DNA from: Bacteroidales bacterium | Lineage (GTDB): Bacteria > Bacteroidota > Bacteroidia > Bacteroidales > UBA932 | Length of the DNA stretch: 36,410 nt | Reading direction: 5' to 3' | NCBI GenBank assembly: GCA_024398125.1 | Contig: JAKSJO010000025.1 | Location: forward strand, 1-36,410 | Shown here: positions 354 through 7,071 of the stretch, in pieces | How the letters are laid out: every line of letters starts with the position of its first letter | How positions within the stretch are numbered: the first letter of the stretch is position 1 | Made by a program: the position numbers and the translations under genes | The notes under the pieces: model-generated | Told to the model about the DNA's origin: nothing | What the model saw: only the letters and a program-made list of their open reading frames with translations | Databases searched by the model: none

Positions 354-2315
354 TTATTCCCAAATTGGTTCAAATTGCATATACCAATAATCCCATCCGG
401 TACCGTTGCTTAAAGCATTCTCAAGATCCCCGTCATCATTATTAACAGCATATACGCAGAAAGACCCCGCGTAAGATCCACAGTCCTGGAACATATCCCA
501 CTTATTAGTAACGTTACTCATGGAGAAATTTTCTCCAATCCTCAGGGATGTTAGATTTGTACACATAAAGAACATACTTTGCATGTTTTCCACAGATCTG
601 GTGTCAAAGGAAGTGATATCAAGCGATTCCAGCGTTTCACAGCCAGCGAACATGTTGGACATATCTGTCACATTGCTGGTGTTGAAATAGGCGACATCAA
701 GTGCGGATAGATTTTGACAGTCATTGAACATATAGGACATATTTGTCACATTTTGGGTGTCAAAATTGGTTACATCAAGCTCGGTTAGAGCACTACAAAA
801 AGCGAACATCCCCCCCATATTTGACACATTTTGGGTGTCAAAATGGGTGACATCAAGTGCGGATAGACTTCCACAGCCATTGAACATTTGGGACATATTT
901 GTCACATTTTGGGTGTCAAAATGGGTGACATCAAGTGCGGATAGAGCTGGACAATCCTTGAACATACCGTACATGTTCGTCACACTGCCGGTGTTGAGAT
1001 TATCAATACCTGTAATACTTTGCAACTTTACGCAATTATAGAACATGTAATTCATATCAGCCACACTGCCGGTGTTGACAGGGAGGGCTATGCTCGTCAA
1101 TTCATAACAATCAGCAAACATACTGCTCATATCTGTCACACCGCTCATATCCAGTTTGTTAAGATTGGCAATAGACTCAACTTTATAATATTTTCTAAAC
1201 AGACCAGATGAATTAACAGGAGCTATAATCTTGTCTGCGGAGGTCTGGATTCTCAGCACCTGACCATCAAGAAACTCCCACAGCGTGCCTGCAGCATTGA
1301 GTTTCTTGTGAGTTGCATCTTCGGTATATGAGCTGACATTGACACCTGTTTGAATTTCGATGCTGGTGGCACCACTAAATGATCTGCCAAGCGTCAGTGC
1401 GGTTTCCCATGCGGCAGTTACAACGTAATTCGCGGAGAAATTGATAGGATAGATCTTGTTGCGCTCAACCTGAATACCTTCAGCCTTGGTGGTGCGCATT
1501 CTCTTGGTGGTGGTGCCGTCGGTCACGTCAATCTGGAGGTAGCCGTAGTGATCTGCCTGTGTTTCCTGAGTATTTTCGCTCATAGGGGGAATGGCAATAT
1601 AGAAAGTCTTGCTTTCGCCTTCTGGGATAGCAATACCCGAAGGAATATTCAGTGTAATCTTGCTGTTCTCGGAAGTTACATCAGGGTTACCGCCGATATA
1701 CATGTAACCACCTGCGTCGAAACAAACCTCTCCATTCATCACAAGGTCAGAAGATACCGTGATAGAAGTCAAATTGGCCATTTGAGTATGAGGAACGGTA
1801 ATCTTCAGCAATGCTGCTCCATTTTTGAACACTATGTTATTCGGTGTTTCGGGATCTAAAAATGAAGGCATAGAGAACATAGGTGCAAAGCTGATATCCT
1901 CCCCATTATAGGTTTGAGTGGCAGGGAAAATATATCCCTCACCTAACGAAAGAATCGATGCCGGATATATAGCCATCACAAATTTATCAGCATTAGGGTC
2001 CAGAACCATAACATCGGCTTTGTGTGACAATGTTGCTGAAGATGCATCTACACCAGGAGTGGCTTCATAAATATATACAGCCGAGGCACCATCATCCTCA
2101 ATGCCAAGCGCCATCAGCACCTCGTCACCATTCTCCCAGTTGACTTTATTTCCCTCGCCAAGGGTAGTCTTGGTGGCATGGTCCTCGATGGTTGCCTTGA
2201 ATACAGGCATGCTGACTGACTCCGGCTCGGTGCCGACTTCAACGATTGGATCTTCCTTGGTACATGCACTGAGTACAGCCATGGCTGTGGCTGCGATATA
2301 GAATAATCTCTTCAT
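354..2315 (-). CDS. BspA-like surface lipoprotein with fimbrillin-like N-terminus and DUF285 repeats
   Basis: Predicted 653-residue surface lipoprotein. Residues 1-17 form a signal peptide ending in the lipobox LSAC with Cys18 as the lipidated residue. The following TKEDP carries a K-E-D run that matches the K-(D/E)2 lipoprotein surface-export signal known in Bacteroidota. Residues about 37-310 resemble a fimbrillin (Mfa-like) domain, with the typical TKTTLGEGNKVNWENGDEV stretch. Residues about 385-608 are a series of DUF285/BspA leucine-rich repeats of the form LDVTxFDTxNVTNMSxMFxxC, mostly 26 residues long. BspA-type proteins bind host matrix or other bacteria, so adhesion is the likely role, but the ligand is unknown. 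The gene is last in an operon behind two tiny ORFs (12-base gap) and ends in a strong terminator. Both of its ends recur, fused, at 3951-4166. Confidence 0.88.
   Translation of the reverse strand: MKRLFYIAATAMAVLSACTKEDPIVEVGTEPESVSMPVFKATIEDHATKTTLGEGNKVNWENGDEVLMALGIEDDGASAVYIYEATPGVDASSATLSHKADVMVLDPNADKFVMAIYPASILSLGEGYIFPATQTYNGEDISFAPMFSMPSFLDPETPNNIVFKNGAALLKITVPHTQMANLTSITVSSDLVMNGEVCFDAGGYMYIGGNPDVTSENSKITLNIPSGIAIPEGESKTFYIAIPPMSENTQETQADHYGYLQIDVTDGTTTKRMRTTKAEGIQVERNKIYPINFSANYVVTAAWETALTLGRSFSGATSIEIQTGVNVSSYTEDATHKKLNAAGTLWEFLDGQVLRIQTSADKIIAPVNSSGLFRKYYKVESIANLNKLDMSGVTDMSSMFADCYELTSIALPVNTGSVADMNYMFYNCVKLQSITGIDNLNTGSVTNMYGMFKDCPALSALDVTHFDTQNVTNMSQMFNGCGSLSALDVTHFDTQNVSNMGGMFAFCSALTELDVTNFDTQNVTNMSYMFNDCQNLSALDVAYFNTSNVTDMSNMFAGCETLESLDITSFDTRSVENMQSMFFMCTNLTSLRIGENFSMSNVTNKWDMFQDCGSYAGSFCVYAVNNDDGDLENALSNGTGWDYWYMQFEPIWE
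585..1052 (-). repeat. 78-bp tandem repeat array inside the BspA-like gene
   Basis: The element around TTTGTCACA recurs at 585, 663, 741, 819, 897 and 975, exactly 78 bases (26 codons) apart. The next unit leftward in the protein is 3 bases longer. Units starting at 825 and 903 are identical over 43 bases. Each unit encodes one leucine-rich repeat. Confidence 0.9.
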
Positions 2316-2327
2316 CTTCGTGCCGGA

Positions 2328-2495
2328 TTAATTGTTGAACCAATTACTGGTATCACCCTCTTGGTAGCTCTCGCTTGAAGAGCGTCCCTGACTCTGGCAG
2401 ATGATTCCTGCTGGATCCATCTCCACCACCTTTGCCTGTGGCGTTGCATATGGCTTCCTCTGGAAGTCAGATGCCGCAAAAATTTCTTTCTTCAT
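2328..2495 (-). CDS. Small Cys-motif protein (55 aa) preceding the lipoprotein
   Basis: A 55-codon ORF runs from ATG at 2495 to TAA at 2328, with 7 bases separating it from the small ORF upstream and 12 bases from the lipoprotein start. It begins MKKEIFAASDFQRKP and has no signal peptide or membrane helix. Residues 16-35 (Y16, P19, V24, E25, I31, I32, C33, S35) align gap-free with residues 8-27 of the small protein at 5688-5813, which sits in the same place in a second operon. The C-terminal 20 residues are polar (S, E, N, W). Short proteins of this look occur widely ahead of Bacteroidales surface lipoproteins, but I know of no assigned function. It is real in my view because of the tight operon packing and the match to its counterpart. 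Confidence 0.75.
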   Translation of the reverse strand: MKKEIFAASDFQRKPYATPQAKVVEMDPAGIICQSQGRSSSESYQEGDTSNWFNN

Positions 2496-2502
2496 TTCTT
2501 TT

Positions 2503-2631
2503 TTATCTTGTTTTGTTTTTTCTGTTTTCTATTATCAATGGAATTGTAAGAACAACCAGGCAGATCAGCCCGGCTGTCAGAAGCACTATGATTTCAGTGT
2601 TATCTTTAGGAAGTTCGATGGTCGTTTGCAT
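2503..2631 (-). CDS. Single-helix membrane micropeptide (42 aa)
   Basis: ATG at 2631 opens a 42-codon ORF ending with TAA at 2503, 7 bases before the next ATG. A polar N-terminus of 12 residues is followed by one hydrophobic segment, residues 13-34 (starting EIIVLLTAGLICLVVLT), then the basic tail ENRKNKTR. This gives a clear one-helix, C-terminus-in topology by the positive-inside rule. I do not recognise the family. Its place between the araC terminator and the Cys-motif peptide suggests it is the first gene of the lipoprotein operon. The alternative is a chance ORF, but the helix plus basic tail and close spacing argue against that. Confidence 0.6.
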   Translation of the reverse strand: MQTTIELPKDNTEIIVLLTAGLICLVVLTIPLIIENRKNKTR

Positions 2632-2715
2632 GCACCAATGGATGTTTGCACAAATATGGCCTCTCCGACCGTATTCATGTGTGCGTTTCCTATACGAAAA
2701 TGTATGGCTTGCTCA

Positions 2716-2751
2716 AAAAAAATGTATGACTCCTAGGAGCCATACATTTTT
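2716..2751 (-). terminator. Terminator overlapping the araC stop codon
   Basis: Bases 2718-2751 form a near-perfect inverted repeat centred on CTCCTAGGAG (2730-2739), with one A/C mismatch, followed on the minus strand by a run of eight T residues. The araC stop codon TAG (2733-2735) lies at the apex, so the last codons of the gene form half of the hairpin. Confidence 0.8.
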
Positions 2752-3839
2752 ATGCGCCATTCTCGTGGGGTGAAACCCGTTTCCGCCTTGAATAGATTTT
2801 GGAAATAGCTTCTTGAAGCGAAGCCGCATTCTTCGGCGACGAATTCGATGGTTGCCTCCGGATTGCTGATAAGAATCCGCTTGGCTTCTTCGATTCTGAT
2901 CTTTGAGAGCCAGACTCTGAAGGTGACACCATAACATGTGCCGATATAGCGGCTGAGCATCTGGGCAGGTACTCCGATGGAGTGGGCCAGCTTGGCAAGC
3001 GATATGTCCGGATTGGAGAAGCTTCCCTTGGCGACCCATGCATCCAAGGATTCCTTAATCGAGGCGATATCCATGCCTTGAAGGGCGTCCTCTTCCCTGT
3101 CCTTTCCCTCGGAGTCCGGGCTGTTGTTTTCCTGGCTGTCCAGGACATCCGCCACGGGACGGAGACCGAAGCCGAGGCATACGAAGTTAAGGGAGTAGAT
3201 GAACAGGATAAGAAGGAATATCGGTCCAAGGACAAAAAGCAAAGGGCGGAAAAATATCATCGCCGGGCTGAGAAGGCTTGTGATCAGCAGGAGGAGCGTT
3301 CCGGTCAGCATGAAGTTATTGTAAATGCCGAGGTCTCCGGCCGTGTTGCTTTCGAGCTCGGAGCGTATGCGTCTGCTTTCCTTGAACGGATCGAAGACGG
3401 CAAAGACTATGCTCACGAAGAACTCCGCGCCCATTGCGTACAGGAAATTCCCAAGATGCAGCGATCTTTGGAAATACAATCCGATAATGAAGGTGACGAC
3501 TATAAGGGAGTAGCTGATGATGCTGAAGATGATGTGGCGCTTGAGATATCGACTGCCGCTGGACAGGTTGACGATGGAGAAGGACAGCAGGTAGGCCACA
3601 GGAGCGTAGAACAGGATGTTCACGGCTGCTCCGACGTCATCTCCGCTGGCTCTGAATCCAAACAATATCTGGAGAAGATAGTGGATGGAATAGATGAGCA
3701 TCGAACACACCATCATCCAGCGGGATGTTTCATAGCGGCTGACAATGGTCGAGATATGCACTCTGCTGAGCGCAAGCATAAGCCCGATGAAGAATGTGAG
3801 GATCATCGAGCTGAACTGTATGAGAAGTAGATTGTCCAT
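2733..3839 (-). CDS. Seven-helix membrane AraC-family transcriptional regulator
   Basis: A 368-residue protein from the ATG at 3839. The frame stays open to a TTG at 3863, but that lies within a base or two of the predicted transcription start. Seven hydrophobic segments fill residues about 3-235 (for example MILTFFIGLMLAL near the start), followed by an acidic linker rich in D/E/S and a C-terminal AraC/XylS DNA-binding domain at about 265-366. The second helix-turn-helix is clear (EFVAEECGFASRSYFQNLFK, then GFTPREW). Membrane-bound AraC regulators of this kind occur in Bacteroidota and are thought to sense envelope signals. The gene has its own promoter and terminator and lies directly upstream, same strand, of the small-peptide/BspA operon, which is its likely target. 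Confidence 0.88.
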   Translation of the reverse strand: MDNLLLIQFSSMILTFFIGLMLALSRVHISTIVSRYETSRWMMVCSMLIYSIHYLLQILFGFRASGDDVGAAVNILFYAPVAYLLSFSIVNLSSGSRYLKRHIIFSIISYSLIVVTFIIGLYFQRSLHLGNFLYAMGAEFFVSIVFAVFDPFKESRRIRSELESNTAGDLGIYNNFMLTGTLLLLITSLLSPAMIFFRPLLFVLGPIFLLILFIYSLNFVCLGFGLRPVADVLDSQENNSPDSEGKDREEDALQGMDIASIKESLDAWVAKGSFSNPDISLAKLAHSIGVPAQMLSRYIGTCYGVTFRVWLSKIRIEEAKRILISNPEATIEFVAEECGFASRSYFQNLFKAETGFTPREWRIKMYGS

Positions 3840-3870
3840 TTTGCAAGCGGGGTAAACCGTCAACCGCTCA

Positions 3871-3901
3871 CAAAGTTAAGGATTATCTGCGTGCCCTCAA
3901 A
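3871..3901 (-). promoter_or_regulatory. Bacteroidota-type promoter for araC (2733-3839)
   Basis: On the minus strand TTTG (3898-3901) and TAACTTTG (3871-3878) are 19 bases apart, an exact match to the Bacteroides -33/-7 consensus. The start site would fall near 3864, giving a 25-base leader to the ATG at 3839. Confidence 0.75.
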
Positions 3902-3950
3902 TACTGCGGGGAACTTTACGCTCCGACGTCCAGGCGGAGGCGGTTACCTT

Positions 3951-4166
3951 CCAGAATACAAAAGATTTTATTACAAATAGAAAAAGGCTGTCAGCAGCAT
4001 TCCGCCGCTCGCAGCCCTTTTGCATTTCTTTATCCGGTTAGTTGGATTGAGTTTGGAGAGAAAGAATTTATTCCCAAATTTGTTCATATACCATATACCA
4101 ACCCCATCCGGTACCGACTTCAACGATTGGATCTTCCTTGGTACATGCGCTGAGTACAGCCATGGC
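3951..4166 (-). pseudogene. Collapsed duplicate of the BspA-like lipoprotein gene (ends only)
   Basis: Bases 3951-4116 match 237-405 (terminator, stop codon and last codons) with a few substitutions and one net 3-base gap. Bases 4117-4166 match 2235-2284 (lipobox and following codons). The join falls at GGTACCG/GGTGCCG, a 7-base near-match present at both parental breakpoints, so about 1.83 kb of the middle is missing. The frame survives across the join: lipobox LSACTKEDPIVEVGT runs straight into the C-terminal GWGWYMVYEQIWE. The hydrophobic segment upstream of the lipobox (ILVLAAAMA) differs from the intact gene and no good start codon is seen, so this is a remnant and not a functional micro-lipoprotein. 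Confidence 0.85.
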
Positions 4167-4212
4167 GGCGGCGAGAACGAGTATGGCTGGGCACAGCAGG
4201 GCAAGACCGCAG

Positions 4213-4368
4213 GGAGGCTTCGGCGACGGCACCGACCCTAAGGAAGAGACAGAGGATGTCAAGGCCTCAGGCGTCAACACTCACTTCTACGTATCTCCAG
4301 ACACCGCTCACGAATGGCTCACCTGGCGCCGCTGTCTCTACCAGTTCGCCCAGTTGCTCTTCAAATAA
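4213..4368 (+). pseudogene. Orphan C-terminal fragment of an enterochelin/feruloyl-esterase-like hydrolase
   Basis: The plus-strand frame ending in TAA at 4366-4368 reads GVNTHFYVSPDTAHEWLTWR followed by RCLYQFAQLLFK. This is the typical C-terminus of Bacteroidota alpha/beta-hydrolase esterases (enterochelin-esterase-like and xylan/feruloyl esterases), where the His of TAHEW is the catalytic His. Only about 50 residues are present. The nucleophile-serine part and the start are absent, and the sequence just upstream belongs to the lipoprotein remnant. It is a gene fragment stranded by rearrangement. Confidence 0.75.
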
Positions 4369-4397
4369 TGGATCAAGGGTCATCCCTTGGAAATGAT

Positions 4398-4437
4398 AAA
4401 GGCTGTTTCTCACCCATAGGGTTCTGAAACAGCCTTT
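4398..4437 (-). terminator. Terminator after the FISUMP lipoprotein gene
   Basis: AAAGGCTGTTTC (4398-4409) pairs perfectly with GAAACAGCCTTT (4426-4437) around a 16-base loop. It lies 18 bases beyond the stop codon of the minus-strand gene ending at 4456. The plus-strand side is also followed by T-rich sequence, so it may act in both directions. Confidence 0.8.
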
Positions 4438-4455
4438 AAAGTTATTTTTTTATTT

Positions 4456-5679
4456 TTAATCCAGTGGACGAACCAGTCTTATAGCACGCTCGTCCATATC
4501 GAAAGCAGCTCCACCGGTCGAGAAGTTTGCTTCATTGGAGAATGACATGAAACTATGCTTGTCAAACGGATCTCCCCAACGCTTTGCAGTTCCTGCATAA
4601 CTGTCGTACCAATAGTATCCTGTATCTGTTCCTCTTATGTCATCATAGTATGCATTCAAGTAACCACCTATAGGGAAGAAAATCGATGCTCCATTGTTTG
4701 AGACGAAGCAGCCATTGACACCATTCAGTGCTCCCATCGCCTTGGAAGCGGCAGACAGACTTGTGAGTTCCTGCATTTCGGCTTCCGTCGGGAGACGCCA
4801 GCCAGAGCCCCAATCATTTGAGTTGGTCCATTCAAGCATTGTATATAATCCTGGCTTGCTGCTTCTGTAATTCATATCTGCCCATGCAACGCTGAGTCCG
4901 ATGTCCGACGCCTTTTTCCAACCATTGGTTTGAGAATACTTGGATGCATCGCCGAGAGACATAGCGATATCGTACGCCTTTGCAGAGAATGTCGACACCT
5001 TTGGAACATTGCGTGTATACTCGAGATATGATCCGTTAGCTGTAATTACAAACGCTGTAGGAGTGTATGTAACCGAACCTGCAGGAACAACCACATACAC
5101 TTCTACAGGTGTTTCAGACAGTGTGGATGTGTTGAGATAGTCGGCTTGATAATCTCCTGCCTTGACTGCTTTCAAGGAACCGGAGCCTGTCACATTGAAA
5201 CGAAGCACAGATCCCAGGACTGTATATCTCACATCAAGTGATTTTGTTCCTTCTACAACATCGTCCTTTTCTGCCACCATAGGCAGATAACGGCCATCAA
5301 AAGAACCTGCCGATGGGTGGTTCTGGTACTTCTTGACAGAAGGAACTGCATACTCGGAACCATCAGCAACAGAAGGATACACTACTTTTATGTGGCTATG
5401 ACCAGCCGGGATTGTTGCGGTGAATTCTCCAGCCGTGATTTCTGCAGAAGCACTTTCGCCAAAAGAGACACCATCTGCACTTGTCCAATATGAAACCATA
5501 TCCCCTGCCGCCCAGCTGAGTTTGGCGGACTCATCAAGGGATGTCTTTGTTTCAGTTGAAGGAACAAGTCTTACTGTCGCTTTCCAGAAAGGAGCCTGCT
5601 GCTCCTGGGTTTCAATCTTTGAACAAGAAACAGCTGCAATCGAAGCTGCTGCAATGATAAATGACAATATCTTCTTCAT
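4456..5679 (-). CDS. Fimbrillin-like/FISUMP-domain lipoprotein
   Basis: A 407-residue lipoprotein with signal peptide MKKILSFIIAAASIAAVSC, Cys19 being the predicted lipidation site. Residues about 28-240 are fimbrillin/Mfa-like (TETKTSLDESAKLSWAAGD, TIPAGHSHIKVVYPS). Residues about 255-405 match the FISUMP/DUF1566 fold: GLSVAWADMNY, then WGSGWRLPTEAEMQELTSL and a closing ERAIRLVRPLD. Such modules are common in cell-surface proteins of Fibrobacterota and Bacteroidota, and their role is unknown. The start is 8 bases past the stop of the Cys-motif peptide at 5688-5813, so the two are translationally linked. A divergent 7-helix AraC regulator is the nearest candidate controller. Confidence 0.82.
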   Translation of the reverse strand: MKKILSFIIAAASIAAVSCSKIETQEQQAPFWKATVRLVPSTETKTSLDESAKLSWAAGDMVSYWTSADGVSFGESASAEITAGEFTATIPAGHSHIKVVYPSVADGSEYAVPSVKKYQNHPSAGSFDGRYLPMVAEKDDVVEGTKSLDVRYTVLGSVLRFNVTGSGSLKAVKAGDYQADYLNTSTLSETPVEVYVVVPAGSVTYTPTAFVITANGSYLEYTRNVPKVSTFSAKAYDIAMSLGDASKYSQTNGWKKASDIGLSVAWADMNYRSSKPGLYTMLEWTNSNDWGSGWRLPTEAEMQELTSLSAASKAMGALNGVNGCFVSNNGASIFFPIGGYLNAYYDDIRGTDTGYYWYDSYAGTAKRWGDPFDKHSFMSFSNEANFSTGGAAFDMDERAIRLVRPLD

Positions 5680-5687
5680 AACACAAT

Positions 5688-5813
5688 CTATTCATCTATT
5701 AGCTCGTAACCGGATTCCCAGTTACTATCCAAAGATCCACATAGTACAGATTGGTTCTGTACATCAACTGCCACAGACTTAGGCGGCACATAAGTGAGTT
5801 TTGTTTGTTCCAT
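5688..5813 (-). CDS. Small Cys-motif protein (41 aa) preceding the FISUMP lipoprotein
   Basis: ATG at 5813 to TAG at 5688, 41 codons, starting MEQTKLTYVPPK. No signal peptide or membrane helix is visible. Residues 8-27 align without gaps to residues 16-35 of the 55-aa protein at 2328-2495: Y8, P11, V16, C25 and S27 are identical, and D17, V18, V23, L24 are conservative. The C-terminal tail (LDSNWESGYELIDE) is acidic with a Trp, as is usual for this type. It lies 8 bases upstream of the lipoprotein ATG. The function is unknown; the repeated pairing with a lipoprotein gene is the main clue. Confidence 0.72.
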   Translation of the reverse strand: MEQTKLTYVPPKSVAVDVQNQSVLCGSLDSNWESGYELIDE

Positions 5814-5991: not shown

Positions 5992-7071
5992 ATGTCTACT
6001 GAACTCTACACCTTATTCTCTGTGCTTCCATGCATGGTATGTCTATTCTGGAGCCTGATACTAGTCGTCGACTGGGCTGATTCTGATCGAGCGACACATA
6101 TTCTTCTGTTGTTTTCTTTGACTTGCACCGCTCTATACGCCTGCCACGCGGCACACTTCCTTTGTGCTTTGACATCTTATCCGAAATGGATAGACGGCCT
6201 GTGGTCTACGTGCAATCTTGGAGTATATCCCTTATTCTACATCTATATAAGATACCTCACTGATGTTCATGGCCCATCTCGACGTATCTTCTGGGTACTT
6301 ATACCTTCTCTTGTCGCTGTCATTCTCTCTTCAGCAGTTGCCATCTGTGGATTGAATTTTGACATTGTTAGGATGTTCAACACCCCAGTTTTCGCAGCTG
6401 AAGTCATATATACTGCAGTATACGGGCGAAGGCGGCTGATTCGATACAGAGAGAGAATCAGCAGTTTCTATGCTGACACAGATGACAAGAATCTTGAAGC
6501 CCTTGACAGGATTCTTGCATTGCTCGTAGTTACGTCGATTGCCTCTATGTCTGTTAACGCGCTTGGCAGAGACAATTTTTCCGATGCTGCAATAACTATC
6601 CCTTCCATCGCGTTCTCTGCCCTTCTGTTCGGCATATTCATGTGGGGACACAGACACCATTTTTCTGCCGAAAATTTCAAGCTTGAAATCGAGAATACCG
6701 ATAAGAATATAGAGACAGGTACAGTAATGTCAGATGATTTTCACAATATTCTATACCAACGGATCTGCAAGCTGATGGAGGACGAGAAACTATTCCTCAA
6801 CAAGGACTTGAAGATTACAGAACTGGCAACCAGAATCGGAACAAACAGAACATACGTATCTTCATGCATCAATCACCATTCGGGTGTTTCTTTTTCTGAT
6901 TTCATACATAGATACAGGATAGAGTACGCTATGACAATACTTGCAAAGGATAAGGAAACAAGCATGGCGGAAGTCGCAGAACTGTCGGGATACAAAAGCG
7001 GAAACTCCTTCTACAAGGCATTTGTAAAAATCAATGGAATATCCCCTACAAAGTGGATGGAATCCCATTGA
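5992..7071 (+). CDS. Seven-helix membrane AraC-family transcriptional regulator
   Basis: A 359-residue protein. Seven hydrophobic stretches (the first containing LPCMVCLFWSLILVVDW) span residues about 8-220, followed by a charged linker and an AraC-type domain at about 255-356. The second helix-turn-helix motif is MAEVAELSGYKSGNSFYKAF, ending with the family signature GISPTKWM. It has the same architecture as the regulator at 2733-3839 but low sequence identity, so they are not a recent duplicate. It diverges from the 41-aa peptide/FISUMP lipoprotein operon across a 178-base gap and is the natural candidate to control it, possibly together with itself through the inverted repeat in its leader. 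Confidence 0.87.
   Translation: MSTELYTLFSVLPCMVCLFWSLILVVDWADSDRATHILLLFSLTCTALYACHAAHFLCALTSYPKWIDGLWSTCNLGVYPLFYIYIRYLTDVHGPSRRIFWVLIPSLVAVILSSAVAICGLNFDIVRMFNTPVFAAEVIYTAVYGRRRLIRYRERISSFYADTDDKNLEALDRILALLVVTSIASMSVNALGRDNFSDAAITIPSIAFSALLFGIFMWGHRHHFSAENFKLEIENTDKNIETGTVMSDDFHNILYQRICKLMEDEKLFLNKDLKITELATRIGTNRTYVSSCINHHSGVSFSDFIHRYRIEYAMTILAKDKETSMAEVAELSGYKSGNSFYKAFVKINGISPTKWMESH

Follow-up and report, generated by a model that had tools for sequence, protein, structure and literature searches.

Why does each of two different lipoprotein genes of a Bacteroidales bacterium follow a very short open reading frame (ORF)? The question is raised by contig JAKSJO010000025.1 of assembly GCA_024398125.1, whose 36,410 nucleotides (nt) are the window analysed here (contig C18 of genome G000, which comprises 2.34 Mb in 49 contigs). 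An initial annotation of the window noted two ORFs of 55 and 41 codons directly before the two genes and suggested a leader, a chaperone, or a modified peptide for the lipoprotein. As described below, the last of these is favoured: the ORFs probably encode precursors resembling those of ribosomally synthesized and post-translationally modified peptides (RiPPs), each located upstream of a lipoprotein gene and matured in trans by one gene set encoded elsewhere. This is because a conserved front half is joined to a variable acidic tail, and because the peptides co-occur and co-locate with an operon for a RiPP recognition element (RRE), a kinase, a peptidase, and an ATP-binding cassette (ABC) transporter. 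The other two guesses are given low weight as rivals.

A peptide family encoded upstream of lipoprotein genes

Both ORFs lie on the minus strand, 12 nt and 8 nt before the genes of lipoprotein 1 and lipoprotein 2, respectively, as had been annotated. The features of the window are as follows; the two E-values come from the hidden Markov model A3 (see below).

2328..2495, minus strand: small ORF 1, predicted precursor peptide of 55 aa (E 1.9e-13, with its own sequence included in the profile)
2391..2495, minus strand: predicted leader of small ORF 1, residues 1-35, including YATPQAKVVEMDPAGIICQS, delimited by alignment (putative leader role and cleavage point)
2331..2390, minus strand: predicted core or tail of small ORF 1, residues 36-55, the variable part, acidic and with Trp (putative role)
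354..2315, minus strand: lipoprotein 1, 653 aa, with a lipobox (LSAC), a fimbrillin-like module, and DUF285/BspA-type leucine-rich repeats (LRR)
5688..5813, minus strand: small ORF 2, predicted precursor peptide of 41 aa (E 4.4e-9, with its own sequence included in the profile)
5733..5813, minus strand: predicted leader of small ORF 2, residues 1-27, including YVPPKSVAVDVQNQSVLCGS, delimited by alignment (putative role)
5691..5732, minus strand: predicted core or tail of small ORF 2, residues 28-41, LDSNWESGYELIDE (putative role)
4456..5679, minus strand: lipoprotein 2, 407 aa, with a lipobox, a type V pilin fold at residues 28-248, and a sub-threshold FISUMP-like C-terminal part

The ungapped 20-residue alignment of the two ORFs was reproduced, and its core is Y-x2-P-x13-C-x-S. 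Neither ORF has a Pfam or NCBIfam match, and among the relatives scanned (69 against Pfam and 21 against NCBIfam) no family is common to two members, the only matches being weak ones of single members. Are such ORFs common? Single-sequence searches found two further copies in the same genome, each upstream of another lipoprotein gene. Later searches located copies in contigs C3 and C20 and divergent ones in C12, C19, and C23, with a lipoprotein ORF downstream each time. A profile of four copies had matches in 38 of the 61 genomes of the genus, the source genome included (E<=1), and the 69-row profile A3 had 334 matches in 49 of the 61 (E<=0.02), with a maximum of 29 per genome. The core of the family is Y-x2-P-x13-[C/A]-x-S, followed by a variable acidic tail.

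I fetched 97 places from the matches of the four-copy profile, with long open frames and most matches of E above about 0.03 omitted; at least one omitted match (G032:C16:7987) was later scored as a family member. Two exact duplicate pairs are among the 97 places, the matches in L017 and L018 contain internal stops, one of the two L044 peptides has no ATG upstream of its motif, and the L012 peptide is truncated at a contig end. By a lipobox rule, a lipoprotein start lies near the peptide stop in 90 of the 97 places, with a median gap of 14 nt, although L076, where the main ORF downstream resembles a transporter, is a doubtful case. The other seven include two contig ends, a lipoprotein outside the lipobox rule (G028:C5), a tandem peptide (G023:C15), and a peptide followed by a fimbrillin-like ORF in which no in-frame lipobox was found (G012:C74:50943). 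L007 (G005:C6) and L082 (G023:C15) have a tandem pair of peptide ORFs upstream of a single lipoprotein gene.

The motif search that the initial annotation proposed did find homologues at equivalent positions: a lipoprotein start lies within -16 to +45 nt for 85 of 95 peptides. The same loci contain 1207 other small ORFs, of which 13 have such a start. The complete Y-x2-P-x13-[C/A]-x-S is present in 82 of the 90 fetched peptides and in 2 of 1257 other small ORFs, and YxxP is present in 86 of the 90, which had not been preselected by the spacing pattern. The check for purifying selection, also proposed, gave a pN/pS of 0.16 over five leader-similar pairs (Fisher p=3e-11; five of six pairs were summed, the second use of L214 being omitted), which is consistent with translated genes. 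In a reciprocal test within the source genome, the fimbrillin module was matched most strongly by 10 lipoproteins (E<=1e-20), and a peptide lies directly upstream of 7 of these, one of the seven (L279) being counted from a peptide already found in the earlier searches. An eighth (L276) appears to come after a peptide-lipoprotein pair in C19, no peptide was found upstream of L273 and L280, and none of 14 weaker fimbrillin-module matches has a peptide within the tested range.

Both window lipoproteins are likely located at the cell surface. A type V pilin (fimbrillin) fold was predicted for lipoprotein 2, the one that was modelled. The Pfam family Mfa_like_1 has no match to either of them and was matched by 6 of 84 lipoproteins of a wider set, whose C-terminal domains vary (LRR, BACON, fn3, F5/8, and TIG; at most 450 aa of each of the 84 was scanned). 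By eye, positions 3950-4200 on the minus strand contain what is left of another copy of the lipoprotein 1 gene, in which the 3′ end and terminator are joined to a 5′ lipobox piece, and the remnant is therefore read as an internally deleted copy.

The initial annotation also regarded a nearby regulator as a constant part of the arrangement, which was not upheld. AraC-type regulator genes (HTH_18, with hydrophobic N-terminal halves) lie beside both operons, at 2733-3863 (minus strand) and 5992-7071 (plus strand). A 42-aa ORF with an apparent single membrane segment and no Pfam match (2503-2631, minus strand) is located between the former and small ORF 1. At the 90 loci, an AraC gene is adjacent in 5 cases, and three more loci of G012 share one that lies 2-11 kb downstream, so that the regulator was rejected as a constant part.

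A constant front half and a variable tail

Which part of the peptide is conserved? Among 81 peptides that had passed the motif-spacing pattern, on which the counts are thus conditioned, Tyr1 is found in 81, Pro4 in 78, Cys18 in 75 (Ala in 5), and Ser20 in 80. In the lasso leader motif YxxPxL, the position of Leu is here mostly occupied by V, I, T, A, or S, and in relatives from other families [VI]-[LI]-C-x-S is often replaced by G-[FI]-A-x-S. The tail is 8-25 aa in length and its first residue is mixed across the peptides. It is net acidic by two or more in 79 of the 81, and an aromatic residue is found within the last six positions in 67. On the alignments, the tail behaves as a variable module joined to a constant front part.

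Is the tail exchanged together with the lipoprotein? A locus of G023 and one of G011 are 95.6% identical over 2582 nt through the leader, and the identity stops 4 nt beyond the codon for the Ser of C-x-S; past this breakpoint, the two differ both in the tail and in the lipoprotein. The 11 leader-similar pairs comprise two identical duplicates, one ordinary orthologue, seven pairs with diverged tails, and one pair in which the tail was kept and the lipoprotein changed. The seven are partly dependent on each other (two reuse one duplicated peptide and three come from the trio L214/L216/L218). In Mantel tests, tail distance correlated with lipoprotein distance (r=0.22, p=0.0005 for the 81 peptides; r=0.12, p=0.0005 without close pairs), and leader distance did not. 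With another distance and a stricter filter (59/77), r was 0.09 (p=0.014), and in this stricter set p was 0.003 with tail length partialled out and 0.03 for different-genome pairs. The link between tail and lipoprotein is suggestive only. The claim that the peptide is cognate to its lipoprotein is thus supported in part, by the swap between G023 and G011 and by the weak correlation, and is contradicted by a counter-example in G012:C74 (see below).

The peptides might instead remain in the cytoplasm without modification and, as chaperones or adaptors, bind the lipoprotein prior to its export. The pairing of a peptide gene with a lipoprotein gene and the weak tail-lipoprotein correlation fit this idea, but the tail varies far beyond what is expected for a binding face, and an RRE operon with a peptidase and an ABC transporter would be left unexplained. 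I consider this explanation very unlikely.

A PqqD-kinase-peptidase-ABC gene set

What could mature such peptides? According to PMC12710340 and PMC10368454, YxxP is one of the sequences by which lasso peptide RREs recognize their precursors, and PqqD-type RREs were therefore sought in the genomes. PqqD was found in 52 of the 61 genus genomes, with an E-value of 6e-12 in the source genome. At E<=0.1, the PDB matches of the PqqD profile are the lasso B1 proteins TfuB1 (7e-5) and TbiB1 (0.05) and no others. Among 112 scanned loci, 80 of which had been fetched with the genus PqqD profile, 68 combine PqqD with a kinase, an S24/S26-type peptidase, and an ABC transporter, all four within 4 kb and on the same strand. 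All four with a nucleotidyltransferase are found in 7 more loci, fewer genes in 25, and the local PqqD profile is silent in 12.

A structure model of the kinase (pLDDT 90) has the PEPCK/HPr kinase fold; according to PMC10368454, the lasso kinase BsfK phosphorylates the precursor with the aid of the RRE BsfB1. In the peptidase, Ser (GxSMxP), His (HR), and Asp (GD) are invariant in 24 aligned sequences, and the Pfam assignment is PF00717 Peptidase_S24. This Ser/His/Asp pattern is presumably that of the S26B signal peptidases. The source genome has a split set, with PqqD (L139:8021-8287) and the kinase on C1 (L139) and the S24 peptidase and the ABC transporter on C34 (L269). A gene of about 230 aa (DYNTEREKL..MPEYGRNVLKM) flanks both the full operon L145 (G023:C5) and the S24-ABC part in L269, which suggests that PqqD and the kinase have moved away in the source genome.

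A locus of G013 (L129, contig C1) has, by eye, a sulfotransferase-like gene, PqqD, and an Asn-synthetase-like cyclase gene, and a PF13471 peptidase gene lies about 6 kb from them on the same contig. L129 is probably a true lasso cluster. Are the small ORFs then true lasso peptide precursors whose cyclase is encoded elsewhere? The YxxP leader, the B1-like RRE, the HprK-type kinase, the nucleotidyltransferase, and the ABC transporter would all agree with this. However, the B2 peptidase family PF13471 is present in 2 of the 61 genus genomes and absent from the source genome, no relative of the L129 cyclase was found by tblastn in the other operon loci searched (the search was not genome-wide), and the first tail residue is mixed. 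This is the least probable of the alternatives considered here.

Co-occurrence and co-location of the peptides and the gene set

Do the peptides and the gene set occur in the same genomes? In a draw of 295 genomes of the order, 26 had a peptide-profile match at E<=0.05, and the 19 whose match lay in an open frame no longer than 100 aa (G180 with an internal stop) were regarded as peptide-positive. This set was fixed when PqqD had already been searched for and the kinase had not. In the seven remaining genomes the matches lie in longer frames only, with PqqD in two of these genomes and the kinase in one. PqqD is present in 18 of the 19 peptide-positive genomes and in 165 of the 276 others (p=0.002). 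The kinase, found in 42 of the 295 genomes at E<=1e-8, is present in 17 of the 19 and in 25 of the 276 (p=2e-14). At E<=1e-30, a cut chosen post hoc after the match list had been viewed, the figures are 15 of 19 and 6 of 276 (p=3e-17). Counted by family at this strict cut, they are 10 of 14 and 2 of 99 (p=1e-9), assuming that the highest family number seen, 113, is the number of families. Among the six strict-kinase genomes scored as peptide-negative, at least one (G262) holds a peptide that the profile missed. Within the genus, PqqD and peptide presence are also associated (p=0.011), with incomplete genomes as a confounder.

I also inspected the surroundings of PqqD in a hand-picked set of genomes of the order, 13 of them peptide-positive and 7 peptide-negative. 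The kinase and/or the S24 peptidase lies beside PqqD in 12 of the 13, and in the thirteenth (G320) PqqD-S24-kinase lies at a separate locus. Of the seven comparators, five have neither, one has a weak kinase match, and one (G119) has PqqD-nucleotidyltransferase-ABC together, with the kinase and S24 elsewhere.

In five named places, the precursor gene lies beside the RRE genes; these do not include the source genome, and few genus loci have this arrangement, which occurs in several families. In G054, a peptide gene is immediately upstream of kinase-S24-PqqD-nucleotidyltransferase-ABC, with no lipoprotein gene in between. The gene order is peptide-lipoprotein-kinase-S24-PqqD-nucleotidyltransferase-ABC in G242, and kinase-PqqD-peptide-lipoprotein in L198. 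G262 has PqqD-nucleotidyltransferase-kinase, two other genes, a peptide, a fimbrillin-like lipoprotein, one gene, and S24, while G143 has peptide-lipoprotein-ABC-S24-PqqD, one ORF, and the kinase; the peptides of these two were detected by the motif and missed by the profile. An accepted peptide lies within 8 kb in 6 of 80 named PqqD loci, which are mostly from metagenome-assembled genomes (MAGs) of rumen and other Bacteroidales, with a few Prevotella-type records, one Rikenellaceae MAG, and Xylanibacter brevis. The rumen commensal X. brevis ATCC 19188 (L222) has kinase-S24-PqqD, and no peptide was seen there within 8 kb.

These data also bear on the idea that the ORFs are regulatory leader peptides, in which translation of the 20-residue stretch, or ribosome pausing on it, tunes the lipoprotein gene 10-20 nt downstream. 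The short motif with fixed spacing, the median gap, and the lack of a visible signal peptide in the sequences speak for such a role. On the other hand, this idea would not explain why the peptides track the RRE/kinase/peptidase/ABC operon (p=2e-14), why the G054 peptide precedes this operon directly, or why the tail is steadily acidic. Thus, I regard regulation by the leader as improbable.

Evaluation of the proposed maturation in trans

Several observations weigh against precursors matured in trans, in addition to the post hoc choice of the strict kinase cut. The surroundings of the operon genes in the source genome yielded no peptide, and across the genus peptides lie about as close to PqqD as their density would predict (judged by eye from the listed places, with no formal test). 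No lipoprotein was found after the peptides at G024:C53 and G054:C102:122057. Four of the nine genus genomes without a PqqD match carry peptides (three of them are less than 86% complete), and 7 of the 52 with PqqD have no peptide match. PqqD is a weak marker by itself, being present in 183 of the 295 genomes, and two of the 19 peptide-positive genomes, G180 and G186, which have weak peptide matches, lack the kinase. The p values for co-occurrence are given without correction for the tree, and both the peptide and the kinase profiles are mainly from one genus; therefore, shared ancestry could favour matches in the same genomes. As for exchange behind the leader, G012:C74 has two peptides with a common leader and tail and different lipoproteins, and the stretch common to L214, L216, and L218 stops before the [C/A]-x-S position. 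The correlation of tail and lipoprotein is weak (r 0.09-0.22), with p=0.08 under within-genome permutation.

How would the maturation proceed? The PqqD/RRE protein may hold the leader via the YxxP strand, as in lasso peptide maturation, and the kinase and the nucleotidyltransferase would modify the peptide. The Ser-His peptidase may cut after [C/A]-x-S, whose small residues at -3 and -1 would fit the small-residue rule for these positions. The acidic tail would then be exported by the ABC transporter and may act at the cell surface together with the fimbrillin-fold lipoprotein encoded beside it.

The last step is the favoured one for the mature tail, and the main rival concerns this step. With the same maturation, the mature peptide may be an antibacterial or a signal, and the adjacent lipoprotein may be its immunity protein or receptor. 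The peptide and lipoprotein genes are adjacent and change together in one near-identical locus, and such an RRE, kinase, and nucleotidyltransferase do occur in lasso clusters (PMC10368454, PMC7533575). Nevertheless, up to 29 matches per genome are many for bacteriocins. The lipoproteins also differ from small immunity lipoproteins in their large size, their pilin-fold module, and the variety of their C-terminal domains. I consider the immunity or receptor role unlikely, though less so than the other alternatives.

If the tail does work with the lipoprotein at the surface, a broader scheme can be put forward tentatively, with somewhat less than even confidence: a genome-wide peptide decoration of surface adhesins in Bacteroidales, in which a lasso-derived gene set matures dozens of precursors, and the tail and the lipoprotein are exchanged as a cassette behind a fixed leader. 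If true, it would be a modular means of changing the cell surface, with an acidic peptide paired to its own fimbrillin-fold lipoprotein. Should the main reading, precursors matured in trans, be right, a role would be found for hundreds of small genes that belong to no Pfam or NCBIfam family, and the lipoproteins would gain a peptide partner. It would also become possible to test a lasso-type maturation set that has a signal-peptidase-like enzyme but no nearby cyclase. For an RRE operon that in most cases lacks an adjacent precursor gene, the leader is a handle for finding the substrates. A full-text search of a set of open-licence papers found none combining ‘RiPP’ and ‘fimbrillin’; the reading joins RRE-guided peptide maturation to the fimbrillin-type lipoproteins of Bacteroidales.

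Comparison with known systems

The nearest known system is the lasso bsf cluster (BsfA/B1/B2/C/D/K/N), as described in PMC10368454. It resembles the present system in the YxxP leader, the discrete PqqD-type RRE, the HprK-type kinase, the nucleotidyltransferase, and the ABC transporter. In contrast, an S24/S26-type Ser-His peptidase lies beside the RRE here, the B2 family occurs in hardly any genome of the genus, no cyclase was found in the operon loci searched, and the precursor genes are dispersed across the genome, each next to a lipoprotein gene. The predicted cleavage point also differs, [C/A]-x-S here and Thr or Ile at -2 in the bsf/lasso system.

For the type V pili and fimbrillins of Bacteroidales, no small peptide partner of FimA, Mfa2, or BACUNI_00621 was found in the open-licence papers searched, and the pilin-type modules here differ from them in bearing varied C-terminal domains. 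A precedent for dispersed precursors is provided by the prochlorosins, RiPPs in which a single enzyme set serves many peptides. Both systems have a conserved leader and a variable core, and here too one maturation set would serve many precursors. Unlike the prochlorosins, the family described here has a lipoprotein gene after each precursor and an RRE/kinase/peptidase set.

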